Positions 35,503-63,000 of a stretch of DNA of 64,000 nt are shown here, one piece after another. The first letter of the stretch is position 1; each line of letters begins with the position of its first letter. The DNA comes from Acidiphilium multivorum AIU301. Lineage in GTDB: Bacteria > Pseudomonadota > Alphaproteobacteria > Acetobacterales > Acetobacteraceae. The notes beneath the pieces were generated by a model, which searched no databases, was not told where the DNA came from, and saw only the letters and a list, made by a program, of their open reading frames with translations. Location of the stretch: the NCBI RefSeq assembly GCF_000202835.1, contig NC_015186.1:3009501-3073500 (forward strand), given 5' to 3'. Made by a program: the position numbers and the translations under genes.

Positions 35503-36305
35503 TCCACCCCACAGCGTCAGTCGATCCGCGGGCCTCGCTCGGCGCGGGGGTCAATGTCGGCCCGTTCTGCGTCGTCGGCCCGGACGTCGTCCTCGAAGAC
35601 GGCGTCGAACTGGTCTCCCACGTGGTGGCGGACGGCCACACGCGGATCGGCGCGGGAACGAAGGTGTTCCCCTTCGCCACGATCGGCCTCGCGCCGCAGG
35701 ATCTGAAATACCGGGGCGAGCCGACTGAAACGGTGATCGGCCCGGGCTGCACCATCCGCGAGCATTGCACGATCCATCGCGGCACCGTCACCGGGCACGG
35801 CATCACCCGCGTGGGCGCCGGCTGCCTGCTGATGGCGGTGGTCCATGTCGCGCATGACTGCGCGCTCGGCGACAACATCGTCATCGCCAACAACGTGGTG
35901 ATGGGCGGCCATGTCGAGATCGCCGACCGCGCCATCATCGGCGGCGCCACCGCGATCCACCAGTTCGTGCGGATCGGCACCGGCGCGATGGTCGGCGGCG
36001 CCTCCGGCGTCGAGGCGGACGTGATCCCCTATGGCTCGGTGATCGGCAACCGCGCGCGGCTGCACGGGCTCAACATCGTCGGCCTGCGCCGGCGCGGGCT
36101 CGACAAGGAGGGCCAGCACCGGCTGCGCAACGCCTACCGCCTGCTGTTCCAGGGCGCCGGCACCTTCGCCGCGCGGGTCGAGATGCTGCGCCGCGAGGCC
36201 GGCGACGATCCCTATCTCGCCGAGATCCTCACCTTCATCGACGCGCCGAGCAAGCGCGGCCTGATCCGCAGCACCACCCGCCACGACGCCGACGCCGAGG
36301 CCTGA
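35499..36305 (+). CDS. lpxA: UDP-N-acetylglucosamine O-acyltransferase
   Basis: 268 residues. Hexapeptide beta helix from the start (IHPTASVDPRASLGAGVNVGPFCVVGP) with the catalytic-His segment VVHVAHDCALGDNIVIANNVVMGGHVEI and the LpxA-specific GLNIVGLRRRGLDKEGQHRLRNAYRLLF in the C-terminal helical domain. It catalyses the first acylation in lipid A synthesis. Overlap of 4 bases with fabZ. Confidence 0.96.
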   Translation: MIHPTASVDPRASLGAGVNVGPFCVVGPDVVLEDGVELVSHVVADGHTRIGAGTKVFPFATIGLAPQDLKYRGEPTETVIGPGCTIREHCTIHRGTVTGHGITRVGAGCLLMAVVHVAHDCALGDNIVIANNVVMGGHVEIADRAIIGGATAIHQFVRIGTGAMVGGASGVEADVIPYGSVIGNRARLHGLNIVGLRRRGLDKEGQHRLRNAYRLLFQGAGTFAARVEMLRREAGDDPYLAEILTFIDAPSKRGLIRSTTRHDADAEA

Positions 36306-36329
36306 CCGCCCGATGACGGCAGCGCGCGC

Positions 36330-37193
36330 ATGAGCGGATCGGCGGCGGGCCCGCTCGGCATCGTCGCCGGCGGCGGCAGGCTGCCCGGCCAGGTGGCCGC
36401 CGCCGCCCGCGCCGCGGGGCGCGGCGTGTTCATCGTCGCCCTCGACGCCCATGCCGATCCCGAGGTCGTCGCCCCGTTCCCGCACGAGACGATCCGCCTC
36501 GGCGCCGTCGGTGCGGCGATCGACGCGCTGAAACGCGCCGGCTGCCGCGAGATCGTCCTCGCCGGCCCGGTCAGGCGCCCCTCGCTGTTCGACCTGCGGC
36601 CGGATGCGGTGGGCGCCAGGCTGCTCGCGCGCATCGGCCGCGCCGCCTTCGCCGGCGATGACGGCTTCCTCGCCGCGATCGTGCGGGTGCTCGGCGAGGA
36701 AGGCTTCACCGTGCTCGGCGCGCATGAGGTGATCAGCGAGGTTTTCGCGCCCGAGGGGCTGCTGTCCGGCGCCGCGCCGGATGCGGCGGCGCTGGCCGAC
36801 ATCGCCCGGGGCATCGCCGTGGTGCGCGCGCTGGGGGCGGTGGATGTCGGCCAGGGCGCGGTCGTGCAGCAGGGCATCGTGCTCGCGGTCGAGGCGGCGG
36901 AAGGCACTGATGCCATGCTCGCCCGCGCCGCCACGCTGCGCCGGCCGGGGCCCGGCGGCGTGCTGGTCAAGCTGGTCAAGCCCGGCCAGGAGCGCCGCGC
37001 CGATCTGCCGACGCTCGGGGTCCGAACCGTGCGGGGCGCGGTGGAGGCTGGGTTGCGCGGCATCGCATTCGAGGCCGAGGGCGCCATATTGATGGATCGC
37101 GAGGTAATGGTGCGCGAGGCCGAGGCGGCGGGGCTGTTCCTGCTCGGCATCGACCCCGGCGCCGCAAGATGGGACGAAGGAAAACGGGAATGA
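36330..37193 (+). CDS. lpxI: UDP-2,3-diacylglucosamine hydrolase, LpxI type
   Basis: 287 residues of the LpxI/DUF1009 family: [29 protein letters not shown] at the start, and near the end the catalytic-domain signature [46 protein letters not shown]. LpxI replaces LpxH in alphaproteobacteria, releasing UMP to give lipid X. lpxB, which usually follows, is absent here; the next gene, overlapping by 4 bases, is gloA. Confidence 0.94.
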
Positions 37194-37582
37194 GCGATTT
37201 TCAGTATCTGCACACGATGATCCGGGTGAGGAACCTGGACGAGAGCGTGAAATTCTATACCGAACTGCTCGGCATGAAGGAACTCCGCCGCAACGACGTG
37301 CCGGACGGCAAGTATACGCTCGCCTTCGTCGGCTATGGCGACGAGGCCTCGCACACGGTGCTCGAGCTGACCTACAATTACGGCGTCGACAGCTATGACC
37401 AGGGGACGGCTTTCGGACATCTGGCCCTCGGCGTGCCGGACATATACGGTGCGGTGGAGAAGCTCCGCGCCGCCGGCGTGAAGATCACGCGGGAGCCGGG
37501 GCCGGTGAAGTTCGGCAAGACGGTGATCGCCTTCATCGAGGACCCGAACGGCTACAAGATCGAGCTGATCGAACGGAAGTGA
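37190..37582 (+). CDS. gloA: lactoylglutathione lyase (glyoxalase I)
   Basis: 130 residues, full length for bacterial GloA. The vicinal-oxygen-chelate fold shows metal ligands in [11 protein letters not shown] (His), VLELTYNYG (Glu), AFGHLALGV (His) and YKIELIE (Glu), with the GloA-typical YTELLGMK and [12 protein letters not shown]. It isomerises the methylglyoxal-glutathione adduct, probably with Ni or Co. Its start overlaps the lpxI stop, placing it in the lipid A transcript, an odd position usually held by lpxB. Confidence 0.95.
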
Positions 37583-37589
37583 GCTGAGC

Positions 37590-38864
37590 ATGCCGCGCGA
37601 CCCGGTACCCGAACCGCCCGTGAAACGACCCGGCAAGAGCCTGCGCTTCCGGCTGCTCTCGGCCGGGTTCGGCGCGGCGGAGGCGGTGCTGCCGCGCGGC
37701 ATTCCGGCAATCGACGCAAGCGCGATCGAGGCCGCCGGCGGCAGCACGCTGCCGGATTTCGCGCGCGAGGGGCTCGAGCGGCTGACCGCCTCGATCGCGG
37801 CGGAGACCAGCCTGTCGCTGTTTGGCCGGGTCTCGGTCCGCTACGACCTCACGCGGCTGGTCCGCAACGCCGAGACGATCCGGCGGATGCATGCCGCCAC
37901 CCCGGGCATCGGCCGCGAGCCGGTGCGGGCGCCGGTGTTCATCATGGGGTTGCCGCGGTCGGGGACCACGTTCCTGCACACGCTGTTCGGCTTCGACCCC
38001 GACGTGCTGGTGCCGCGCGTGTGGCAGACGCTGTATCCGGCGCCGCGGCCGCGCGGGTTCGATCCGCGCGCGAGCGCCGTGGCGCGCAAGACCGACCGGC
38101 AGCTCGACATGTTCGCCGGCATGGCGCCGGAGTTTCCGGCGATTCACCCGATCGACGCCGACAGTCCGCAGGAATGCAGCGAGATCACCGCGCATGTGTT
38201 CCACTCGCTGCGGTTCGACACGACGTTCCGGGTGCCGAGCTACACCGCCTGGATCGACAGCCAGGACGATGCGCCGGCCTTCGCGTTTCACCGGCAGTGG
38301 CTGCAGGCGATGCAGCACGGCACCGGGGGAAGATTCTGGGCGCTGAAATGCCCGGAGCACACGTTTTCGGTGAAGGCGATCCTGCAGACCTATCCGGATG
38401 CGCGGTTCGTCGTCGTGCATCGGGACCCGGTGCATGTGTTCGCCTCGGTCGCGCACATGACCGAGGTGCTGCGGCGGCCGTTCCTGCGCGGGATCGACCC
38501 GGCGGAGATCGGCCGGCAGGTGACGGAGCGGTGGATCGACGGGGCGCGGCGTCTGGTGGAGTTCGACCGCAGCGGGGCGGTGCCGGCGGAGCGGCTGGTG
38601 AACATTCAGTACGAGACGCTGACGGCGGACCCGATCAAGGCGGTGTCGGGCATCTACGCGCATTTCGGCGAGACGTTCTCGCCCGCGGCGGAGGCGGCGA
38701 TGCGGGCGCATCTCGATGCCGCGCCGCGCGGCGGCTATGGGCGGAACCGCTACCGGCTCGCGGATTTCGGGATCAACGTGGAGCGGCTGCGGCCGCGGTT
38801 CGCGCCGTATATCGAGTATTTCGGCGTGCGGGCGCGCCCGTCGGACGGCACGCAGGCGGCCTGA
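37590..38864 (+). CDS. sulfotransferase-family protein
   Basis: 424 residues. The PAPS 5'-phosphosulfate loop is VFIMGLPRSGTTFLHTLFG (about 117-133), with ALKCPEHTFSVKAILQTYPDARFVVVHRDPVHVFAS as the 3'-phosphate-binding region and a later INIQYETL-like stretch (VNIQYETLTADP). The long N-terminal helical part (1-115) is typical of the bacterial Sulfotransfer_3 family, whose acceptors are mostly unknown. It begins 7 bases after gloA. Base composition is more G/C-repetitive than upstream genes but codon pattern is normal. Confidence 0.87.
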   Translation: MPRDPVPEPPVKRPGKSLRFRLLSAGFGAAEAVLPRGIPAIDASAIEAAGGSTLPDFAREGLERLTASIAAETSLSLFGRVSVRYDLTRLVRNAETIRRMHAATPGIGREPVRAPVFIMGLPRSGTTFLHTLFGFDPDVLVPRVWQTLYPAPRPRGFDPRASAVARKTDRQLDMFAGMAPEFPAIHPIDADSPQECSEITAHVFHSLRFDTTFRVPSYTAWIDSQDDAPAFAFHRQWLQAMQHGTGGRFWALKCPEHTFSVKAILQTYPDARFVVVHRDPVHVFASVAHMTEVLRRPFLRGIDPAEIGRQVTERWIDGARRLVEFDRSGAVPAERLVNIQYETLTADPIKAVSGIYAHFGETFSPAAEAAMRAHLDAAPRGGYGRNRYRLADFGINVERLRPRFAPYIEYFGVRARPSDGTQAA

Positions 38865-38901
38865 CGGGTTTTTTTCTCCGGGAAAAGCGAGGGGTCAGGC
38901 C
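38858..38901. terminator. inverted repeat shared by two convergent genes
   Basis: GGCCTGAC (38858-38865) and GTCAGGCC (38894-38901) overlap the stop codons of the sulfotransferase and of the downstream minus-strand gene, with a T7 run inside the loop. It may act as a bidirectional transcript end, but it is not a textbook terminator. Confidence 0.35.
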
Positions 38902-39467
38902 GGGCGCGGGGGCGCGCGGACGGGGCGTTGCGCGCGCGGGCGGATTCGGGGCGCGGGCGGGGCGGCGTGTGTCGGGATTTCGGGGATAAATTCGGGGTCG
39001 GGAGCCGGTTTGGGGCGCCTGGGCGCGGGCGGTGGCTCGCGGGGGGCGATGCTGGCGGGCGGGCGGATGCCGAGGTGGCGGCAGAGCGGGCGGAGGATGC
39101 GGCCGAAGCGGGGTTCGGCTTCGAGGAGGGCGGCGCAGGCCGGGTCCGCCATCAGGTGGCGGAGCTGGGAGGCGGCGGCGGTGGCCTCGGGGATGGGGCG
39201 GAGCAGCCAGGCGAAGCGGCGCGGCAGGGTTTTGCTCCGGCGGGCGGGGCGGTTGCGCCGGCGATCCGGCTTCGGTGCGGGGAGGGCGCCGCCGGCGGCA
39301 TCGAGCCGGGCGGCGAGGCTGTCGATCCGCTTTGAGGCGCGGTTGAGGCGGAGCCAGAGCAGGATGACGACCGGGGCCGCGAGCGCGCCGCGGGCGCCGC
39401 GCGCGGCCACGGCCCGGCAGAGGGCGTGGACGATGGCGGCGAAGCGGAGGGCCAGCGCGGCGTGCAT
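38895..39467 (-). CDS. hypothetical protein, basic and proline-rich
   Basis: 190 residues, not recognised as a named family. One N-terminal hydrophobic segment (about 25-40, GALAAPVVILLWLRL) is followed by a helical region, then a conserved-looking block PEATAAASQLRHLMADPACAALLEAEPRFGRILRPLCRHLGI (about 92-135), and a Pro/Arg/Ala-rich tail. Similar uncharacterised proteins occur in Acetobacteraceae as far as I recall. It could be a membrane-anchored cytoplasmic protein. Stop codon overlaps the shared inverted repeat. Confidence 0.6.
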   Translation of the reverse strand: MHAALALRFAAIVHALCRAVAARGARGALAAPVVILLWLRLNRASKRIDSLAARLDAAGGALPAPKPDRRRNRPARRSKTLPRRFAWLLRPIPEATAAASQLRHLMADPACAALLEAEPRFGRILRPLCRHLGIRPPASIAPREPPPAPRRPKPAPDPEFIPEIPTHAAPPAPRIRPRAQRPVRAPPRPA

Positions 39468-40012: not shown

Positions 40013-40420
40013 GGCCTTCGTTCCATACTGGTATCGAGCGTGCATGTATTCCACGACGCCGGCGCGCGCGCCTTGATCCTGCTCAATTCGTGAAACGGCA
40101 TATACAGCACTTTCCGATCCCTTCGGATCGGATGTAGTGCTCTATCATATTGATAAACAGAGCATCTTTATCCGATCAGATGACTCCATCTGATCGGATG
40201 ATGCTCTAAAAAATTCTGGAACGCAGTGGCGGCCGGACGAACGCTCCGCCGCCGAGCAAGCAAGGGCCAGAGCGCCTTCCGATCCAAACGGCTCGTAAGG
40301 CGCTCCATCTTCCTCATCAATCGAGTTTCGTTGTCCGCTCCGATCGGGATACGAGGAAAAACAACAGTATAGTGGCCTGATTGTCCCTGAAATTCACACA
40401 CGAGTTTCAGGGGCGGGACA
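40013..40420. other. gene-free stretch with palindromic repeats
   Basis: About 400 bases of lower GC than the flanks. It holds the flavodoxin promoter on its left, two hairpins of the dispersed palindrome family (40107-40207), about 150 unremarkable bases, and an inverted repeat (CCCTGAAA 40385-40392 / TTTCAGGG 40405-40412) just past the stop of the next minus-strand gene that may end its transcript. Confidence 0.6.
40107..40207. repeat. palindromic intergenic repeat, copies 2 and 3
   Basis: Hairpin A (40107-40140): GCACT/AGTGC outer and TCCGATCC/GGATCGGA inner arms around CTTC. Hairpin B (40159-40207): outer AGAGCATC/GATGCTCT and inner TCCGATCAGATG/CATCTGATCGGA arms, all perfect, around ACTC. 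B is the full-length relative of the left part of the repeat at 13048. Confidence 0.8.
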
Positions 40421-41260: not shown

Positions 41261-41539
41261 TTATGCAAGCGGTGTGGCGCGCCGGTTAACCGCCGCCTGG
41301 ATCGAGTGGAGGAGGTCGGCCAGTTCATCGTCCCAGCCCTCGACTTCGCGGACAGCGAGGAGGCCCAGAATGATCTCCGCGAGCCGTTCCGGCCCGGCGG
41401 TTCCGGCGCAGACTTGCTGAAGATAGATCAGCTGGTTGCGGATGGAGACGAGGGGCGGCAAGCCCGGACGCCCGGCGAGCAGAGACTCGCACCGTTGCAG
41501 CGCGTCGGCGAGGTCGGGTTCCAAGTCGTCCATAGTCAT
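41261..41539 (-). CDS. Tsi6-like putative immunity protein
   Basis: 92 residues, all helical. The pattern ALQRCESLLAGRPGLPPLVSIRNQLIYLQQV then LAEIILGLLAVREVEGWDDELADLLHSIQAAV follows the Tsi6 family, the immunity protein to the NAD(P)-degrading type VI effector Tse6 of Pseudomonas: PG near residue 25, a QL.Y block, and a G..AV+E....D.EL block. The match is from memory of the family and needs a profile search. No Tse6 toxin domain is seen next to it; the only same-strand neighbour is the 223-residue gene 168 bases downstream. A second ATG two codons on is an alternative start. Confidence 0.68.
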   Translation of the reverse strand: MTMDDLEPDLADALQRCESLLAGRPGLPPLVSIRNQLIYLQQVCAGTAGPERLAEIILGLLAVREVEGWDDELADLLHSIQAAVNRRATPLA

Positions 41540-41736
41540 ATCCTTGCGCCTTCAGCGTCCATCCGGGGTCTTGCGCCGCGCAGGCAACAACGGCGTTGGC
41601 CTCAGGATTGATCTTGCTGTTTTTCGATTATGATGTTTTACTGATTGAAAATATTCAGGCACCACAACCATAAAATCGATATCAAAGTGCAAGACAACTT
41701 TTTTGAAAAACGTAGTGCGTTAGTAGTTCGCTTACA

Positions 41737-42525
41737 ATGAATCGATGCCGTCTCTTCATCGATGAGGTAGGAAACGACGATCTTAAGCCGTCGTCGCACG
41801 ACGAGAATCAGAGGTATCTGAGTCTGACGTCTCTCCTTACGAGGATCGACCTTTATGAAAGCCGATTTATTCCTCGTTTAGCCGATTTTAAAACAAGCAT
41901 TTTTGGTAATGGATCGGACGCTATAGTACTACATCGTCGCGAAATTTTACGCCGCGAAAAGGACTTCATTATTCTAAATGACGATGCATTGCGAAACCGC
42001 TTTGATGCTGAAATGCTCATTTTACTTCGTCAGCTTCCATATCTTATATCAACTGTAGTTATAGATAAATTCGAATATGTGAAAACGCGCGGTGAATGGC
42101 TATTTCATCCATATCATTATTGCTTAAAGACTCTTGTTGAGCGGTATGTTCTTTGGATGAGGCGTAATGAGCATGTCGGGGATGTTGTTATTGAGCAAAG
42201 GTATCCGAAAGCAGACAAGCAAGTAAAAGTTGCTTTTCAAAATATATACGAACAAGGCACGGAGCACATACCAGCCAAAATTGTGCAAAAACACCTTACT
42301 TCAAAAGAAATTAAATTCGTTTCAAAAAAAGAGAATTGTCCAGCGATGCAAATCGTAGATTTAATCGCCTATCCTAGCTTTAAAGCTTTGAAATATGAGC
42401 AAAAAGGCGATCAATTACCAAATGATTATGGAAAAAAGATCGTCGATATTTTAGAGGGATGGAAATATGCCCGTCATCCGACGACTTTCAACAAGGAAGG
42501 ATGGGGCAAAAAATGGCTTCCGTAA
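41737..42525 (+). CDS. DUF3800 family protein
   Basis: 262 residues. DUF3800 signatures: N-terminal RLFIDEVGNDDL (acidic residues of an RNase H-like core), a middle part ending in DVVIEQRYPKADKQ, and the C-terminal ENCPAMQIVDLIAYPSFKALK with a conserved Asp. Members are predicted nucleases and often sit in variable or defence-associated loci; activity is unproven. The gene and its flanks (about 41600-42690) are AT-rich with AAA/TTT/ATA codons, unlike the rest of the window, a clear sign of horizontal acquisition. It stands alone, with no methylase or toxin partner next to it. Confidence 0.85.
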   Translation: MNRCRLFIDEVGNDDLKPSSHDENQRYLSLTSLLTRIDLYESRFIPRLADFKTSIFGNGSDAIVLHRREILRREKDFIILNDDALRNRFDAEMLILLRQLPYLISTVVIDKFEYVKTRGEWLFHPYHYCLKTLVERYVLWMRRNEHVGDVVIEQRYPKADKQVKVAFQNIYEQGTEHIPAKIVQKHLTSKEIKFVSKKENCPAMQIVDLIAYPSFKALKYEQKGDQLPNDYGKKIVDILEGWKYARHPTTFNKEGWGKKWLP

Positions 42526-43215: not shown

Positions 43216-43422
43216 GGGGCCTTGCCCCGGACCCCATCAGGGGCGCCGCCCCTGAACCCCGCCAAAGGCGGAGCCTTTGGAATCCATTCGTTTTGGTTTT
43301 GGGGAGGGCATCCGGGCAATTGCCTTGGTAAAGGCAGGGACACGCCCTCCCCAAAACCAAAACGCGAGCGCGGTTCCAAGGGCTCAGCCCTTGGCGGGGG
43401 TGCAGGGGGTGGAACCCCCTGC
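43216..43422. repeat. array of perfect hairpins, five of them with three-base loops
   Basis: Consecutive perfect palindromes: GGGGC/GCCCC (43216-43228), CAGGGGC/GCCCCTG (43238-43254), CCAAAGGC/GCCTTTGG (43262-43280), a large one with 21-base arms (43289-43309 and 43344-43364) holding an inner TGCCTT/AAGGCA stem, CCAAGGGC/GCCCTTGG (43376-43394) and GCAGGGGGT/ACCCCCTGC (43402-43422). All the small ones have a 3-base loop. It fills the space between ettA and the GNAT gene, so ettA transcripts would pass through it. Confidence 0.85.
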
Positions 43423-56806: not shown

Positions 56807-57529
56807 TCAGGCCTTCCGGCTGGCGCGGAAGGCTTCGTAGCGGGCTTTGGTTTCGGCGTTGGCGGGGTAGAGGCCGGGGAGCGGCACGCCGCGGTCGATC
56901 TCGGTCATGATCCAGGCTTCCAGCGCCTCCTGCTCGATCGCCTCGGGCACCACCTCGTCGAGCAGGGCCTGGGGGATGACCACGGCGCCGTCGTCATCGA
57001 CCACGATCACGTCGTTCGGGAAGACGGCGACGCCGCCGCAGGCGATGGGCTGCTGCCAGGCGACGAAGGTGAGGCCGGCGACCGAGGGCGGGGCGGCGGC
57101 GCCGCGGCACCAGACCGGCAGGCCGGTGCCGAGCACGCCGGCGAGATCGCGCATCACCCCGTCGGTGACGAGGCCGGCGACGCCGCGCTTGCCCATGCGG
57201 GCGCAGAGAATGTCGCCGAAAATGCCGGCATCGGTGATGCCCATCGCATCCGCGACGGCGATGCAGCCTTCGGGCATCGCCTCGATCGCGGCGCGGGTGG
57301 AGATGGGCGAGGCCCAGGAGGCGGGGGTGGCGAGATCCTCGCGGGCGGGGACGAAGCGCAGCGTGAAGGCGCGGCCGACCTTGCGGCCCTGGCCGGGGGC
57401 GAGCGGCGCCGTGCCGCGCAGCCAGACATTGCGCAGGCCCTTCTTGAGCAGGACGGTCGTCAGCGTCGCGGTCGAGACCGAAAGCAGGGCCGTGCGGATT
57501 GCCTCGTCGAGCGGTGCGCTTTCGGTCAT
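56807..57529 (-). CDS. RraA-family aldolase/decarboxylase-like protein
   Basis: 240 residues. The RraA-like fold is shown by GRAFTLRFVP, the substrate motif GVAGLVTDGVMRD with R127 and D128, and FPNDVIVVDDDGAVVIPQALLDEVV. The family includes 4-hydroxy-4-methyl-2-oxoglutarate/4-carboxy-4-hydroxy-2-oxoadipate aldolase and oxaloacetate decarboxylase, besides the RNase E inhibitor. R-D plus an IlvD partner favour an enzyme role. First gene of the operon, preceded by a promoter-like sequence. Confidence 0.87.
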   Translation of the reverse strand: MTESAPLDEAIRTALLSVSTATLTTVLLKKGLRNVWLRGTAPLAPGQGRKVGRAFTLRFVPAREDLATPASWASPISTRAAIEAMPEGCIAVADAMGITDAGIFGDILCARMGKRGVAGLVTDGVMRDLAGVLGTGLPVWCRGAAAPPSVAGLTFVAWQQPIACGGVAVFPNDVIVVDDDGAVVIPQALLDEVVPEAIEQEALEAWIMTEIDRGVPLPGLYPANAETKARYEAFRASRKA

Positions 57530-57557
57530 CGTTATCCCCCTTTTGTCGTGTTCCGAC

Positions 57558-57573
57558 GGCGCCCTGGGGCGCC
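57558..57573 (-). promoter_or_regulatory. palindrome in the leader of the sugar-acid operon
   Basis: GGCGCC-CTGG-GGCGCC, a perfect 6-base palindrome between the predicted transcription start and the RraA-like ATG, possible operator or leader hairpin. Confidence 0.4.
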
Positions 57574-57584
57574 ATCCGGTCGGT

Positions 57585-57612
57585 TGTATATGAGGGACAC
57601 GACGGGCCGCAA
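57585..57612 (-). promoter_or_regulatory. predicted promoter of the sugar-acid operon
   Basis: On the minus strand TTGCGG (57612-57607), 16 bases, TATACA (57590-57585), with transcription starting near 57578 and the RraA-like ATG at 57529. The -35 lies inside an inverted repeat CCGCAAGG (57607-57614) / CCTTGCGG (57621-57628), which could be an operator. Confidence 0.55.
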
Positions 57613-57674
57613 GGCGGCCACCTTGCGGCAGGCGGGATGCCTGCCATGATCAGGCCCGGGACGGGCTCAGTTCA

Positions 57675-57833
57675 TCAGCGGTCGTCGTCGTCGTGATGCC
57701 AGCCGCCGTGATAGTAGCCGCCGCCGTAATAGCCGGGGCCGCCATAGGGGTAGTAGACGCAGCCGGCGAGCGCGGTGGCGAGACCGGTCAGCGCGAGGGC
57801 CAGAACGACGGCCCTGAGGGCGGATTGTTTCAT
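57675..57833 (-). CDS. small lipoprotein, Tyr/Gly/His-rich
   Basis: 52 residues, short enough to be easily missed. A signal sequence (MKQSALRAVVLALALTGLAT) leads to the lipobox LAGC at 22-25; the mature peptide is CVYYPYGGPGYYGGGYYHGG followed by WHHDDDDR. A GGAGGA ribosome site lies 6-7 bases before the ATG, which strongly supports translation. The tail has three His and four Asp and could bind metal, but that is a guess. Similar tiny YYGG lipoproteins are scattered in proteobacteria without known function. Confidence 0.75.
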   Translation of the reverse strand: MKQSALRAVVLALALTGLATALAGCVYYPYGGPGYYGGGYYHGGWHHDDDDR

Positions 57834-57930
57834 GTCTCTTCCTCCATCCTTGCGGATCGGGGAGATATGACGCGCGAAAACCGGTGTTTCGATGACCGGA
57901 ATGTGGCGGTGATGTGGAACCTGCGCCGGC

Positions 57931-58380
57931 TCAGGGCTTCACGAAGACCATGATGACGATCACGATCATCAGGATGGTCGGGACTTCGTTGGCGATGCGG
58001 TAGAAACGCTCGGGCTTCGTGTTGGCGTCGTTGAGGAAGTTCTTCCGCCATTTGGAGAGCGCGCCGTGGAAGCCGCTCATCAGGATGACGGAGATGAATT
58101 TCGTCCACCACCAGCCGGCCGACCAGGAGATGGCGCCGGGGGTGAGGATGAGCAGGATGCCGAAGGTCCAGGACGAGATCATCGCCGGGGTGGCGATCTG
58201 CTTGAGCAGGCGGCGTTCCATCACCTTGAAGCGGGCGGATTCGGCCGAGCCGGGGGCGAGCTGGCAGTGATAGACATAGAGGCGCGGCAGGTAGAACAGC
58301 GCCGCCATCCAGGCGATGACCGACATCACGTGGAAGGCGAGTTCCCAGCGGTAGAACGGCGCGAGGGCGGCGATGGTCAT
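57931..58380 (-). CDS. hemJ: protoporphyrinogen oxidase HemJ
   Basis: 149 residues with four transmembrane helices. HemJ signature: YRWELAFHVMSVIAWMAALFYLPRLYVYH with the conserved His, and WTFGILLILTPGAISWSAGWWWTKFISVILMSGFHGALSKWRKNF with the second conserved His. It oxidises protoporphyrinogen IX in the inner membrane and is the common alphaproteobacterial form. It overlaps the HAD gene by 4 bases; the haem operon is hemE-hemH-HAD-hemJ. Confidence 0.94.
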   Translation of the reverse strand: MTIAALAPFYRWELAFHVMSVIAWMAALFYLPRLYVYHCQLAPGSAESARFKVMERRLLKQIATPAMISSWTFGILLILTPGAISWSAGWWWTKFISVILMSGFHGALSKWRKNFLNDANTKPERFYRIANEVPTILMIVIVIMVFVKP

Positions 58381-59069
58381 GCTTTTGCTCCGATCGCGGC
58401 GGCGAGGGCGACGAGGTCGCGCAGTTCGTGGTGGCCGCTTATGACCCGTTCGGCGCCGGCGGCGAGAAGAGGCTCGCCGTTGCCGTGCGGAGCAAAACCG
58501 TAGCAGGTCATGCCGGCGGCGATGGCGCCGGCGATGCCGGTGACGCTGTCCTCGATCACGAGGCAGGTTTCGGGGGCGGCGGGCAGCGAACGCGCGGCGG
58601 CGAGGAAGACGTCCGGCGCGGGTTTCGGGCGGCCGCCCTCGGGGAACAGGCGCGGGGCGGAAAAGGTGCGGCCGGCGACGAGGTCGAGCCAGCCGGTGCG
58701 GCCGAATTTCGCGTCCATCTCCACATCGGCCGAGTTGGAGGCGATGCGCCAGGGCTGGCCGACGGCATCGAAATGCTCGAGGATCTCGCGCGCGCCGGGA
58801 ATGGGTTCGGCGTGACGCTCCATCGCGGCGACGATGCGGGCGACCAGCATCGCGTTCCAGTCAGGCGGCAGGGGACGGCCGAGATCGTCCTCGATCATCG
58901 GGCGCATGGCGCGCAGCGAGACGCCGACGAAGCGGGCCATCGCCGCTTCCGGCGTGACCGGCAGGCCGAGCTCGGTCATCGATTCGGCGATGACCGCGGC
59001 GGAGACGCGCTCGCTGTCGATCAGGACGCCGTCGCAGTCGAAGATGACGAGGCCGAAAGTGCGTTTCAT
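58377..59069 (-). CDS. HAD-superfamily hydrolase (beta-phosphoglucomutase/phosphatase-like)
   Basis: 230 residues. Motif I LVIFDCDGVLIDSE (nucleophile and general-acid Asp), motif II IASNSADV, motif III GGRPKPAPDVFL (Lys), motif IV VIEDSVTGIAGAIAAGM. Cap type C1 as in phosphoglycolate phosphatase and beta-phosphoglucomutase. Substrate unknown. It sits inside the haem operon, overlapping hemH (4 bases) and hemJ (4 bases), though it has no known haem role. Start is MKRTFGLVIFDCDG; the longer frame is not conserved-looking. Confidence 0.9.
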   Translation of the reverse strand: MKRTFGLVIFDCDGVLIDSERVSAAVIAESMTELGLPVTPEAAMARFVGVSLRAMRPMIEDDLGRPLPPDWNAMLVARIVAAMERHAEPIPGAREILEHFDAVGQPWRIASNSADVEMDAKFGRTGWLDLVAGRTFSAPRLFPEGGRPKPAPDVFLAAARSLPAAPETCLVIEDSVTGIAGAIAAGMTCYGFAPHGNGEPLLAAGAERVISGHHELRDLVALAAAIGAKA

Positions 59070-60154
59070 GCAGCCACGACTGCCCGATAGCGGGCCCAGG
59101 GGCAATCCCGGTTGCGGGCATCGCAGGCCCGCCCGCCGCGATGCGAGCAGAGGCCCGGGCCGTGGGCGACGGCGCGGCGGGCGATGCCGGCCAGGGCGGC
59201 GATGAAGGCGGGGTCGTCGTTCTGCGCCGGGGCCCGGTAATAGCCGGGCAGTTTCAGGTGGTCGGCCACCTCGCGGTATTCGACGTCGAGCTCGACCAGC
59301 GTCTCGATATGCTCGGAGACGAAGGCGATGGGGATGACGACGACGGCGGTATTGTCGCGCGCGGCCTGTTCGATCGCCTGCTCGGTCGAGGGTTCGAGCC
59401 ATTTCTGCGGGGTGGCGCGGGACTGGTAGCAGACCTGATGGTCCGGGCGGTGGCCGAGGCGGCGCTCGATCGCCGCCATCACCGCCTCGGTGCAGGCCTC
59501 GACCTCCTCCTGGTAGGGGTCGCCGGCCTTGACGATGGATTCCGGCAGGCCGTGGGCGGAGAAGAGCAGGCGGATTTTCGCGCCGGCCCCGAGTTCGGCG
59601 CGGGCCGTTTCGTAGGTGCGGATGACCGGCTCGGCGGTGGCGGCGGCGAAGGCGGGATCGTCATACCAGCAGCAGAGCGTGGTGGTCGGCGCGACGAGGC
59701 CGGCGCGGGCGGCGGAATCGTGCCAGTCCGCGAGCGAGCTGCCGGTCGTGGTGGTGGAAAATTGCGGGTAGAGCGGGAGCAGAAGGATGCGCTCGGGGTT
59801 CCAGGCCTTCACCTCGCGGGCGACGTCGCGCGCGAAAGGGTGCCAGTAGCGCATCGCGATGAAGCATTTCGCGCCGGGCAGGGCGGATTCCAGCGCGTCC
59901 GCCTGCTGGCGGGTGAGGTCGAGCAGGGGGGATTTGCCGCCCATCAGCGCATAGCCCTCCTCGGCCTTTTTCTGGGCGGAGCGGGCGATCAGCCGGGCCA
60001 GCCAGAAGCGGACGAAGACCGGGGCGCGGATGATCGCCGGGTCCGAGAAGAGGTTGACGCGGAAGGGCTTGATCGAGTCCGGACCGTCCGGACCGCCGAG
60101 GTTGAACAGGACGATGGCGGTGCGGACGGGCAGGACGGGTTCGGAATCGTTCAT
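59066..60154 (-). CDS. hemH: ferrochelatase
   Basis: 362 residues. AIVLFNLGGPDGPDSIKPF at the start, the conserved MRYWHPF, PLYPQFSTTTTGSSLADW, the iron/porphyrin His in LLFSAHGLPESIVKAGDPY, and CYQSRATPQKWLEPSTEQAI. It inserts iron into protoporphyrin IX at the membrane. No C-terminal chlorophyll-binding extension is seen; a Cys-bearing tail (GLCSHRGGRACDARNRDCPWA) may bind the [2Fe-2S] cluster some alphaproteobacterial ferrochelatases carry. hemE ends five bases upstream. Confidence 0.95.
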   Translation of the reverse strand: MNDSEPVLPVRTAIVLFNLGGPDGPDSIKPFRVNLFSDPAIIRAPVFVRFWLARLIARSAQKKAEEGYALMGGKSPLLDLTRQQADALESALPGAKCFIAMRYWHPFARDVAREVKAWNPERILLLPLYPQFSTTTTGSSLADWHDSAARAGLVAPTTTLCCWYDDPAFAAATAEPVIRTYETARAELGAGAKIRLLFSAHGLPESIVKAGDPYQEEVEACTEAVMAAIERRLGHRPDHQVCYQSRATPQKWLEPSTEQAIEQAARDNTAVVVIPIAFVSEHIETLVELDVEYREVADHLKLPGYYRAPAQNDDPAFIAALAGIARRAVAHGPGLCSHRGGRACDARNRDCPWARYRAVVAA

Positions 60155-60159
60155 GGCGC

Positions 60160-61236
60160 TCAGGTGGCGGCGAGGGCGGATTCCTCAAGCTCGCCGGGTT
60201 CCAGCGAGCGGAGGCGTTCGATCACCGCGGCGACGTGCTCGGGCGGGGTGTCCGGCACGATGCCGTGGCCGAGATTGAAGATATGCGGATGGCCTGCGAG
60301 CCCGCGGGCGATCCGCTCCACCGCCTGGCCGAGCGAGATGCCGCCGGCGCGCAGCAGCAGCGGGTCGAGATTGCCCTGGAAGGCGACGCGGCGTGGGGCG
60401 AGCCGGGCGAGGGCGACGGGATCGACCGAAGTGTCCATCCCGACGGCGTCGACGCCGGTATCGGCGATGTAGGGCAGCGTCATCAGCCCGCCGAGGCGCG
60501 GGAAGCCGATGACCTTCACGCCCGGATGGCGGACGCGCAGCTGTTCGACGATGCGCGCCGTGGGGTGGATGACATGGGCGCGGAACAGATCGGGCGGCAG
60601 CAGCCCGGCCCAGGAATCGAACAGCATCACGCAGTCGGCCCCGGCTTCGATCTGCCAGGAGAGGTAGTCGATCGTCGCGGTGGTGACGGTTTCGATCACC
60701 GCGGCGAGCAGGGCGGGATCGGCGTAGGCGACCTCGCGGGTCAGCGGGAAATCGCCGCCGCGGCCGTCGATCATGTAGCAGGCGACGGTGAAGGGGCTGC
60801 CGGCGAAGCCGATCAGCGTCGTCTCCGGCGGCAGTTCGGCGCGGACGCGGGAGACGGTTTCCATCACCGGCTCGGTGCCCTGGCGCAGGGCGGCGGGATC
60901 GAGCGCCTCGAGGCCGGCGAGACCGTCGATCCGTTCGAGGCGGGGGCCCTCGCCCTCGGCGAAGCGGAGTTTCTGGCCCAGCGCCCAGGGCAGGATCAGG
61001 ATGTCGCTGAACAGGATCGCCGCGTCCATGCCGAAGCGGCGGACGGGTTGCAGCGTCACCTCCGTCGCGAGCGGGGGGGTGGTGCACAGGGCGATGAAGT
61101 TGCCCGCCTTTTCCCTGAGCTTGCGATACTCGGGCAGGTAGCGGCCCGCCTGGCGCATCAGCCAGACCGGCGGCGGCCAGACCGCCTCTCCCCCGAGCAC
61201 CCTGAGAACCGGTTTTTCAGCGCGTTGTCCCGTCAT
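60160..61236 (-). CDS. hemE: uroporphyrinogen decarboxylase
   Basis: 358 residues. The N-terminal active-site motif WLMRQAGRYLPEYR, the ILPWALGQKLRFAEGEGP loop, and LFDSWAGLLPPDLFR and GVDAVGMDTSVDP further on. It decarboxylates uroporphyrinogen III to coproporphyrinogen III in the cytoplasm. It opens the hemE-hemH-HAD-hemJ operon; a TATAAG box lies on the minus strand about 25 bases before the ATG. In several alphaproteobacteria hemE borders the chromosomal origin, and the gap upstream here carries DnaA-box-like sites. Confidence 0.96.
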   Translation of the reverse strand: MTGQRAEKPVLRVLGGEAVWPPPVWLMRQAGRYLPEYRKLREKAGNFIALCTTPPLATEVTLQPVRRFGMDAAILFSDILILPWALGQKLRFAEGEGPRLERIDGLAGLEALDPAALRQGTEPVMETVSRVRAELPPETTLIGFAGSPFTVACYMIDGRGGDFPLTREVAYADPALLAAVIETVTTATIDYLSWQIEAGADCVMLFDSWAGLLPPDLFRAHVIHPTARIVEQLRVRHPGVKVIGFPRLGGLMTLPYIADTGVDAVGMDTSVDPVALARLAPRRVAFQGNLDPLLLRAGGISLGQAVERIARGLAGHPHIFNLGHGIVPDTPPEHVAAVIERLRSLEPGELEESALAAT

Positions 61237-61504
61237 GCGACCTGCCTAGCTTCAATTCGTCTTATAGGAAAGGACGGGGGGAGTAGTGTTAGCTGTGAAC
61301 TCTGGGGAACCCCGCAATCCGGTTTTTTCTGCACAGAGTTTTCCACAGCAAAACTCGGCCTGCAATCTGCTGATTCTGCATCAAACCCCCGGTTTTTCCA
61401 CATATGCGGGGGATGCCCGGGAAATTCATCCACCGCTCGCCTCGGTGTGAAATTCATCCACGCTTTCCACCGCGGGCGGTTTCGCGGCCCGAGTTATCCA
61501 CGCT
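61237..61504. other. probable replication origin (oriC), hemE-PPSR intergenic region
   Basis: The 268-base gap between divergent hemE and the PPSR-type gene holds six DnaA-box-like 9-mers in one orientation: TTTTCCACA (61339-61347), TTTTCCACA (61394-61402), TCATCCACC (61426-61434), TCATCCACG (61454-61462), CTTTCCACC (61463-61471) and TTATCCACG (61494-61502). The last is one base off the TTATCCACA consensus, and two others are one base off. The left half is AT-richer (61240-61400) and could be the unwinding element. The origin of Caulobacter crescentus and of Rickettsia lies beside hemE, which makes this the expected place. The gap also holds both genes' promoters. Confidence 0.72.
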
Positions 61505-62383
61505 ATGAGACCATGCATGGACGGCAAGCGGCTCAATCTCCACCTGGTTTCCGACGCCACCGGCGACACGCTGAACGCGGTGGCGCGGGCGGCCTCGGTG
61601 CAGTTCGAGGGTTCGGACATCCATCTGCACCGCTGGAGCCTGATCCGCTCGCGGCTGCAGCTGCACCGGGTGCTGGAGGGGATCGAGGCGGAGCGCGGCC
61701 CGGTGCTGTGCAGCCTGCTCGACCAGGCGCTGCGCCACGAGCTGGACGAGGCCTGCCAGCGGCTGGGCCTGCGCATCCTGCACGTGCTCGACCCGGTGTT
61801 CGACCTGCTGGCCGAGGAGCTGGGGACGCCGACGCGGCCGACCCCGGGGCGGCAATACGTGCTGGATGCCGATTATTTCCGCCGGATCGACGCGATGCAT
61901 TTCGTGCTCTCGCACGATGACGGCCAGGCGCTGCGCGGGCTGGCGGAGGCGGATGTGATCCTGGTCGGCGTCTCGCGCTCGTCGAAGACGCCGACCTCGT
62001 TCTACCTCGCCAATCGCGGCATCAAGGCGGCGAACGTGCCGATGGTGCCGGGGATCGAGCTGCCGGGCGTGCTGGACGATCCGCCCTGCCCGGTGGTCGG
62101 CCTGTTCATCGACGCCGAGCCGCTGATCGAGATCCGCCGGCACCGGCTCACCCTGCTCGGCCAGGGCGGCGGGGCGGCGGGGGCGTTCCGGCCGGACAGC
62201 GGCGACTATGTCGACGAGGAGGCGGTGAAGGCGGAGCTGCTCTGGGCGCGGCGGACCTGTAGCGCGCGCGGCTGGCCGACGGTGAACGTCACCCGCCGCT
62301 CGATCGAGGAGACGGCGGCGGCGGTGCTCAAGCTGATGGACGCCTGGCACGAGCGGCGCCGGCGGACGGCGACGTCCGCCTGA
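61505..62383 (+). CDS. pyruvate, phosphate dikinase/PEP synthase regulatory protein (PPSR, DUF299)
   Basis: 292 residues. [21 protein letters not shown] at the start and the P-loop-like [30 protein letters not shown], followed by [17 protein letters not shown] and [15 protein letters not shown]. These bifunctional kinase/phosphotransferases switch PPDK or PEP synthase on and off, tying pyruvate/PEP flux to ADP. ATG at 61505 ([10 protein letters not shown]) and ATG at 61517 ([10 protein letters not shown]) are both possible; the second matches the family better. The gene starts right at the last DnaA-like box. Confidence 0.93.
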
Positions 62384-62429
62384 CCTGATCGCGGACGGCG
62401 ACGTCCGCCTGAAGCGGTCGCGGACGGCG
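62362..62429 (+). repeat. 29-base tandem repeat across the PPSR stop
   Basis: Unit starts at 62362, 62391 and (partial) 62420, two full copies plus ten bases, beginning GCGGACGGCGACGTCCGCCT. Each unit holds the perfect hairpin GCGGACG-GCGA-CGTCCGC. The first copy includes the stop codon. The hairpins could help end the transcript. Confidence 0.75.
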
Positions 62430-62489
62430 GGCGATCACGTCGGCTTGACTTCCGGAAGCGAGGCTCTAGCCTGAACCGAGGAAAGTCCA

Positions 62490-62981
62490 GTGCCCTCATT
62501 ATCAATGCAGCATCCGGTTTTCGGCGGTTTCGTCCTGCATGAGCGGGCGGGGGCGATCGTGTCGATCGACTTCGGCGGCGACGGCGGGGCGGCGGACGAG
62601 GCGACGCCGCTGCTGCGCCGCGCGGCGGATGCGCTCGCGCGCTATTTCGACGGCGGCCCGCTGGCCGAGGATCTGGCGCTGGCGCCGGCGGGCACCGAGT
62701 ATCAGCGCCGCGTGTGGGCGTATCTGCGCACGATCCCGCGCGGCGAGACGCGGACCTATGGCGAGGTGGCGCGCGATGTCGGCGGCAGCGCCCGCGCGGT
62801 CGGCGGCGCCAACCGCGCCAATCCGATACCGATCCTGATCCCCTGCCACCGCGTGCGCGCGGCGGACGGGCTGGGCGGGTATTGCGGCAGCAGCGAGGAA
62901 GGCTGGGGACTGGCGATGAAGCGCCGGCTGCTCGCCCTCGAAGGCGCCGCTTTCAGTGACGGCGCGCGCCGCCGCGCCTGA
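62490..62981 (+). CDS. ogt: methylated-DNA-[protein]-cysteine S-methyltransferase (Ogt-type)
   Basis: 163 residues. The acceptor Cys is C119 in IPILIPCHRVRAADG, followed by GLGGYCGSSEEGWGLAMKRRLLALEG; the DNA-binding helix GETRTYGEVARDVGGSARAVGGANRANP precedes it. The N-terminal part is short, as in Ogt, without the Ada regulatory domain. It repairs O6-alkylguanine. The start MPSLSMQHPVFGGF (62490) or MQHPVFGG (62505) cannot be separated by RBS. Confidence 0.92.
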   Translation: MPSLSMQHPVFGGFVLHERAGAIVSIDFGGDGGAADEATPLLRRAADALARYFDGGPLAEDLALAPAGTEYQRRVWAYLRTIPRGETRTYGEVARDVGGSARAVGGANRANPIPILIPCHRVRAADGLGGYCGSSEEGWGLAMKRRLLALEGAAFSDGARRRA

Positions 62982-63000
62982 CATTCCGGGAGAAACAGAG

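Follow-up and report, generated by a model that had tools for sequence, protein, structure and literature searches.

A candidate hemE-type replication origin in Acidiphilium multivorum AIU301 and a displaced strand-asymmetry switch

The intergenic gap between hemE and the PPSR gene of Acidiphilium multivorum AIU301 is the best candidate for the replication origin here. Its sequence, the divergent layout of its flanking genes and its top-ranking DnaA-box cluster suggest that it is a DnaA/IHF-type origin element of the Caulobacter hemE type, which probably works as oriC (we put the probability at roughly 0.7). The gap was analysed within a window, that is, a 64-kb stretch covering bases 3,009,501-3,073,500 of the 3,749,411-base contig C6 (NC_015186.1) in an assembly of 9 contigs and 4.21 Mb; positions are given in window coordinates. 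A replication region on contig C1 of this assembly shares 98.3% identity with a plasmid of A. multivorum. The gap consists of 268 bases at 61237-61504 (C6:3,070,737-3,071,004). hemE, encoding uroporphyrinogen decarboxylase (PF01208), is located on the minus strand at 60160-61236, and the gene for PPSR, a kinase/pyrophosphorylase of the DUF299/COG1806 type (PF03618), on the plus strand at 61505-62383. Because the hemE start codon is at 61236 and the PPSR start codon at 61505, both genes are directed away from the gap; an earlier note on this DNA had claimed this polarity, and Pfam confirms the identity of both genes. Also on the minus strand are hemH (ferrochelatase, PF00762) at 59066-60154 and a gene for a UPF0093 protein (PF03653), presumably HemJ, at 57931-58380. 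The AT content of the gap is 44.8%, above the background of 30.3% in the window, and its AT-richer side is toward hemE as claimed, although the difference is slight (47.8% in the hemE half vs. 41.8% in the PPSR half). No Rfam match was found across 36-64 kb of the window. Should initiation take place in the gap, the Acetobacteraceae of this branch would have a well-defined DnaA/IHF origin lacking CtrA sites, and the zero point of the record, now set by dnaA, would be replaced.

DnaA boxes were defined as 9-mers with two or fewer mismatches to TTATCCACA, and those with one or none formed a stricter class. Six such 9-mers are present on the plus strand between 61327 and 61502, three of them in the stricter class. 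The first is a weak DnaA-like 9-mer, TTCTGCACA (61327-61335, two mismatches). It is followed by box 2 (61339-61347) and box 3 (61394-61402), which both read TTTTCCACA with one mismatch and are 55 bases apart, by a further box, TCATCCACC (61426-61434, two mismatches), by box 4, TCATCCACG (61454-61462, two mismatches, 60 bases from box 3), and by box 5, TTATCCACG (61494-61502, one mismatch, 40 bases from box 4), which adjoins the PPSR start codon. The place of box 1 on the minus strand (61294-61302) is degenerate here. Six same-strand boxes had been reported in 165 bases; the number of boxes and the three in the stricter class stand, but the six span 176 bases, and the last five span 164.

The three stricter boxes are the only matches of their class in the window. 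Three matches per window are unremarkable as a number; the unusual part is their crowding. At least five same-strand boxes in 176 bases were observed in none of 20,000 shuffles of the gap composition and in none of 60 Markov windows of 64 kb. The pattern TTWTCCACR occurs at 46 sites genome-wide, and only at this gap are three found within 165 bases. We also built a DnaA-box matrix from the boxes of relatives, excluding the own species and its near relative L054. The gap scores 71 bits; within the surrounding 264 kb the runner-up among separate clusters reaches 44, and nothing in another 0.92 Mb of sampled sequence exceeds 37. Across the 1.18 of 3.75 Mb that were matrix-scored, no other DnaA-box cluster is as strong, the full genome being covered for TTWTCCACR only. 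The gap is also the top box cluster in each of five Acidiphilium regions (40-264 kb), with scores of 71-84 bits.

Relatives were collected by PPSR in three sets: 64 loci on named genome contigs, 60 genomes of the family (PPSR in 46) and 13 genomes of the genus (PPSR in 11), the last two including the own genome. The named-contig and family sets, which partly overlap and include a few outgroups, gave 94 loci, and the divergent hemE-gap-PPSR layout was found in 75 of them. A hemE match was absent from the stretch in the other 19, namely 14 from Gluconacetobacter or Acetobacter and five more loci, mostly truncated. The Gluconacetobacter and Acetobacter loci, L094 and L096-L108, have neither hemE within the 3 kb fetched around PPSR nor a DnaA-box cluster upstream of it. 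Measured from one alignment end to the other, the 68 unique gaps (with the own gap among them) range from 268 to 1,244 bases, 62 of them being 250-450; together they contain 128 boxes of the stricter class vs. 3.3 expected from shuffles, and nine contain none. The earlier note had asked whether the boxes are conserved in close relatives, and they are, in place and together with an IHF site. All 12 gaps of the Acidiphilium clade (two identical) have a box with at most two mismatches at offsets 102, 189 and 257, which are those of box 2, the further box at 61426 and box 5, eight have one at offset 157 (box 3) and four at offset 217 (box 4). The weak 9-mer is present in six of the 12, and seven keep a box with at most two mismatches at the offset of box 1, where the own gap has none. 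Identity in the nine distinct clade gaps is 0.92 in box columns vs. 0.69 elsewhere, which was matched by none of 20,000 random placements. The 55-base pair formed by boxes 2 and 3 is found with at most one mismatch in 12 of the 68 family gaps, own included and mostly of the Acidocella type, and the complete spacing series of 55, 60-61 and 40 bases in four (L059, L060, L068 and L116).

The gap also has an exact match, AATCAGCAGATTG, to the IHF consensus WATCAN5WTR (taken from PMC1914354) on the minus strand at 61363-61375, 24 bases on from the first base of box 2. The consensus recurs at this place, at a distance of about 24 bases, in 11 of the 12 Acidiphilium-clade gaps and also in several gaps of the Acidocella type; anywhere in the gap, it is present in 17 of the 68 family gaps vs. 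3.1 in shuffles. A GATTC (GANTC) site at 61372-61376 lies within the most conserved non-box segment. CtrA sites (TTAA-N7-TTAA) were searched for as well: neither strict nor loose ones were found in the own gap, and strict ones in one of the 68 family gaps. CtrA sites are not universal, and the published account of hemE-type origins names some members without any. The AT-richest 40 bases (61316-61355, 60% AT) are, by composition, a possible unwinding region. In the mechanism that we propose, DnaA would bind the plus-strand row of boxes at 61339, 61394, 61426, 61454 and 61494, with IHF bending the stretch that separates boxes 2 and 3. Next, the AT-richer half proximal to hemE would melt, and two replisomes would be loaded.

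The oriC of Escherichia coli has an IHF site among its DnaA boxes, as in the gap, but it is flanked by mnmG and mioC and not by hemE and PPSR. DnaA-box clusters with IHF are also found in E. coli datA and DARS, which are not origins and are not known to lie at hemE; DnaA boxes and an IHF consensus are likewise present in the gap. Caulobacter crescentus Cori lies between hemE and the COG1806 gene (the hemE/CC0001 gap) and, as described in PMC1914354, resembles the gap in its hemE and COG1806/PPSR flanks, about five DnaA boxes, one IHF site and an AT content above the genome average. According to the same source, Cori differs in its five CtrA sites, none of which has a strict or loose counterpart here, and in its length of 404 bp vs. 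268; furthermore, the strand-asymmetry switch here is displaced by 24 kb. A strand-skew shift is one of seven elements listed for hemE-type origins, not all of which are required, and skew is called a poor universal predictor in that account. The gap has the hemE/PPSR flanks, boxes above chance, an IHF site, a raised AT content and no equal rival region in the sequence scored, and it lacks CtrA sites and a strand-skew shift at the site. In Hyphomonas neptunium, PMC6650430 reports a marker-frequency peak close to hemE, whereas no clear answer came from skew, dnaA or DnaA sites. This species resembles A. multivorum in the hemE landmark, in two perfect parS sites beside parAB and in uninformative skew and dnaA. 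It differs in that parAB is about 7 kb from hemE and that a marker-frequency maximum was measured (PMC6650430); in the own genome, parS is 64 kb from the gap. Origins adjacent to hemE are also predicted in Sphingomonadaceae (PMC4741004), and another predicted alphaproteobacterial oriC lies away from dnaA (PMC3794950). The earlier note regarded hemE-adjacent origins as established in Caulobacter and Rickettsia. This holds for Caulobacter but not for Rickettsia, whose origin was not experimentally established then, because PMC1914354 gives that of Caulobacter as the only one experimentally identified among alphaproteobacteria. A literature search for Acidiphilium with origin or DnaA box apparently gave no paper on this origin among the matches listed.

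Polarity on the scale of the chromosome supports an origin within about 100 kb of the gap and not at dnaA. GGGNAGGG polarity in 43 sampled stretches places the best origin at 3.05 Mb (133 vs. 44), with the turnover on the other side of the chromosome near 1.1-1.15 Mb. T-A skew also fits best at 3.05 Mb; raw GC skew is noisy, with the best single fit at 2.0 Mb and 2.9-3.05 Mb close behind. When 875 ORFs in 1.18 Mb were fitted gene by gene, the best position was 3.02 Mb for GC3 (R2 0.053 vs. 0.022 at the gap) and 2.98 Mb for TA3 (R2 0.091 vs. 0.067 at the gap). The terminus is not fixed by dif, because an E. coli-like core pattern gave just two matches, each with three mismatches. Two perfect parS sites, adjoining ParB, are located 64 kb to the left of the gap. 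In nine relatives (G069, G071, G077, G044, G006, G033, G011, G003 and G053), parS shares a contig with the gap at a distance of 22-99 kb; in G011, G003 and G053 the sites carry one mismatch. Seven of the 25 genomes searched have no parS with at most one mismatch. The distance between parS and PPSR on the same contig exceeds 300 kb in G001 and G022 and is 108 kb in G042, a one-mismatch site lies 6.5 kb away in G005, and the remaining genomes searched have parS on another or an unidentified contig.

The fine-scale strand asymmetry gives a different place. A skew minimum at the gap had been proposed as a check, and it was not found: in the own chromosome GC3 and TA3 switch about 24 kb to the left, and the skews of hemE and PPSR are opposite instead of sharing a leading-strand sign. 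In the continuous 264-kb stretch, change points are at 36.8 kb of the window for GC3, 37.4 kb for TA3 and 29.2 kb (21-43) for GGGNAGGG, and forcing the switch to the gap causes log-likelihood losses of 36.5, 9.8 and 7.4, respectively. The support interval of the switch, 35856-39182 (35.9-37.4 kb for GC3, 35.9-39.2 kb for TA3), is almost all coding and contains lpxI, glyoxalase and sulfotransferase genes; the best box cluster near it reaches only 25 bits. In twenty ORFs at 38-61 kb, GC3 on the plus strand is in excess by +0.31 on average (standard error 0.03), an excess that hemE, hemH and the UPF0093 gene share. This sign is not gene-specific, because it is reversed in the orthologues of these three genes in the four further Acidiphilium genomes of the comparison, only just so for hemH in G069 (+0.01) and with the UPF0093 gene not seen in G079. 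The near relative L054 has the same GC3 sign as the own genome.

The offset of the switch from the gap for GC3/TA3, positive on the PPSR side, is -24.6/-24.0 kb in the own genome, +45.6/+45.6 kb in G069, +21.2/+21.2 kb in G071, +18.2/+18.2 kb in G077 and +5.2/+5.2 kb in G079, for which the analysis covered just -4 to +34 kb. The switch is thus 5-46 kb from the gap in five Acidiphilium genomes, and for TA3 in G071 the gap is only 1.5 log units worse than the best switch. In other relatives, the TA3 switch of G006 coincides with the gap (+0.5 kb; interval -7.4 to +6.0), and GC3 of G053 switches -0.7 kb from it (-31.9 to +4.2). The GC3 signal is weak in G045, G044, G006 and G011, and the best TA3 points at +63 kb in G044, +26 kb in G011 and +24 kb in G053 bring small gains. 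No GC3 switch of the origin type was found in G033 and G003. G033 (L201-L205) has a very strong GC3 skew of up to 0.6, whose sign change is the reverse of that for an origin near the hemE gap. Applied to E. coli as a control, the method placed the best change at +6.4 kb, with a gain of 1.7 log units over oriC itself; the genes used to the left of oriC are all on one strand.

hemE and PPSR should both be leading in every arrangement if the origin is in the gap; their skews are instead anti-correlated. GC3 skews of hemE/PPSR are -0.25/+0.15 in the own genome, -0.30/+0.21 in L054, +0.34/-0.39 in G071, +0.23/-0.30 in G077 and +0.14/-0.16 in G069, and both are positive only in G079 among the five genomes compared. 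We compared 73 species, drawn from 104 loci after excluding those with either gene missing, fewer than about 200 aligned residues or a duplicate PPSR. The two skews have a Pearson r of -0.66 (phylogenetic contrasts -0.68, with 47 of 72 contrasts negative). Nineteen species have hemE above +0.1 and PPSR below -0.1, seven the reverse, two have both at +0.1 or more, one has both at -0.1 or less, and 44 are weaker. In the 53 species that do not belong to the Acidiphilium-Acidocella clade, the rank correlation is -0.43. A gene-composition artefact was ruled out, because four-fold sites give the same result (-0.70). With its boxes masked, the gap too varies with the polarity (rho 0.47). TA3 of hemE and of PPSR showed no correlation (Spearman 0.08), and the TA3 difference tracks the GC3 difference (0.31). 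The skews read as if forks ran through the gap.

This through-running asymmetry, with its turnover 24 kb to the left, is not accounted for by an origin in the gap. An unlikely alternative is that forks diverge elsewhere, here about 24 kb to the left, and that the hemE array is passively replicated as a former origin or as a DnaA-titrating or resetting element of DnaA boxes and IHF, comparable to E. coli datA or DARS. The agreement of GC3 and TA3 change points in each of the five Acidiphilium genomes and the polarity running through hemE and PPSR argue for it. So does the comparison with G069, in which the core is flipped relative to the block from EttA (our assumed name for the block gene near the switch) to LpxI and polarity stays with the flanks. 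However, box clusters in the five switch zones reach only 12-25 bits (three hits in the top one, of 25 bits) vs. 71-84 at the gaps, and the support interval here is almost entirely coding. The five zones also share no common sequence: only coding or repeat matches between G071 and G077 and a 66-base match between the own genome and G069, inside an ORF, were found. In addition, the evidence is uneven, given the small TA3 difference in G071, the partial view of G079, and the switches at the gap for TA3 in G006 and GC3 in G053. We regard as doubtful the broader form of this alternative, in which forks in Acidiphilium, possibly in much of the Acetobacteraceae, start 5-46 kb off at a site that lacks a canonical DnaA-box cluster and cross the gap, and the hemE-PPSR core flips around a moving start. 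If it is true, the DnaA/IHF array at hemE persists as a regulator or relic; if the strand asymmetry is right, hemE with DnaA boxes, the customary marker of origins in alphaproteobacteria, is misleading across the whole family. We keep the gap as the most likely oriC because the switch zone is nearly all coding with weak box clusters, because the gap has DnaA/IHF anatomy and lies within 46 kb of the switch in five Acidiphilium genomes, and because initiation beside hemE is experimentally supported in Caulobacter and Hyphomonas. The reading of the gap as an origin in the earlier note is supported in part: by the box/IHF pattern, its conservation, its uniqueness in the scored sequence, the nearby parS, the turnover of polarity in the neighbourhood and the Caulobacter and Hyphomonas parallels, but not by the fine-scale skew switch, which lies elsewhere.

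The gap separates divergent start codons and must presumably hold or adjoin both promoters, so that the boxes might merely regulate hemE and PPSR via DnaA without initiation. This is very improbable: the conserved row of boxes, IHF, parS and chromosome-scale polarity exceed a promoter operator, and a weak scan found no sigma-70-like promoter pattern. An origin adjoining dnaA, which lies at C6:354 near the record start and 679 kb from the gap, was predicted for Acetobacter pasteurianus (PMC3751514) and has a negligible chance here, because leading-strand coefficients of -0.012 for GC3 and -0.003 for TA3 mean no signal or the wrong sign and GGGNAGGG polarity does not turn there, the proposed check for a turnover at dnaA instead of the gap region having failed to find one.

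The hemH-hemE-gap-PPSR core (57000-63000) is kept together within the genus, with most of its surroundings rearranged, and it is inverted in place relative to G069, beside the EttA-GNAT-LpxI block. Inversion of the hemE-PPSR core was rejected as an explanation by the reasoning that, with an origin between hemE and PPSR, it cannot on its own flip the two genes. A recent translocation breakpoint was also rejected as the cause of the displaced switch: one exactly at the switch is unlikely because the sulfotransferase-GNAT-EttA order is common to the own genome and G069. Another candidate origin was the gap at about 1.1 kb of the window between genes that we take to be ferredoxin/trmE and YyaL, beside gidA-parAB. 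It fits G071 and G077, but here it was dropped, as there is no polarity turn and no cluster of it among the 15 best.

An ORF at 38895-39467 was considered for its similarity to one near the G069 switch and dropped, as it holds a recurring stretch: its residues 78-134 recur with 48-67% identity at three other sampled places of the chromosome and in G069, a dispersed family. Part of the ORF with the 66-base match to G069 likewise recurs elsewhere in the own chromosome. A repeat of about 170 bases at about 43240-43410 recurs in G071 and G077 with 73-75% identity. In G071 it occurs twice, once in each orientation (about +22.3 and +29.5 kb), around a block that we take to be ferredoxin-trmE-gidA-gidB-parAB; such copies may explain inversions near the origin. 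At 40055-40420, a low-GC intergenic stretch with nested palindromes of the AGAGCATC...GATGCTCT type, identified by eye, looks like a mobile palindromic repeat. Finally, an AT-rich island at 41500-42500, in which GC falls to 37-46% from the 70% of the region and an ORF has a foreign composition, is likely acquired DNA.
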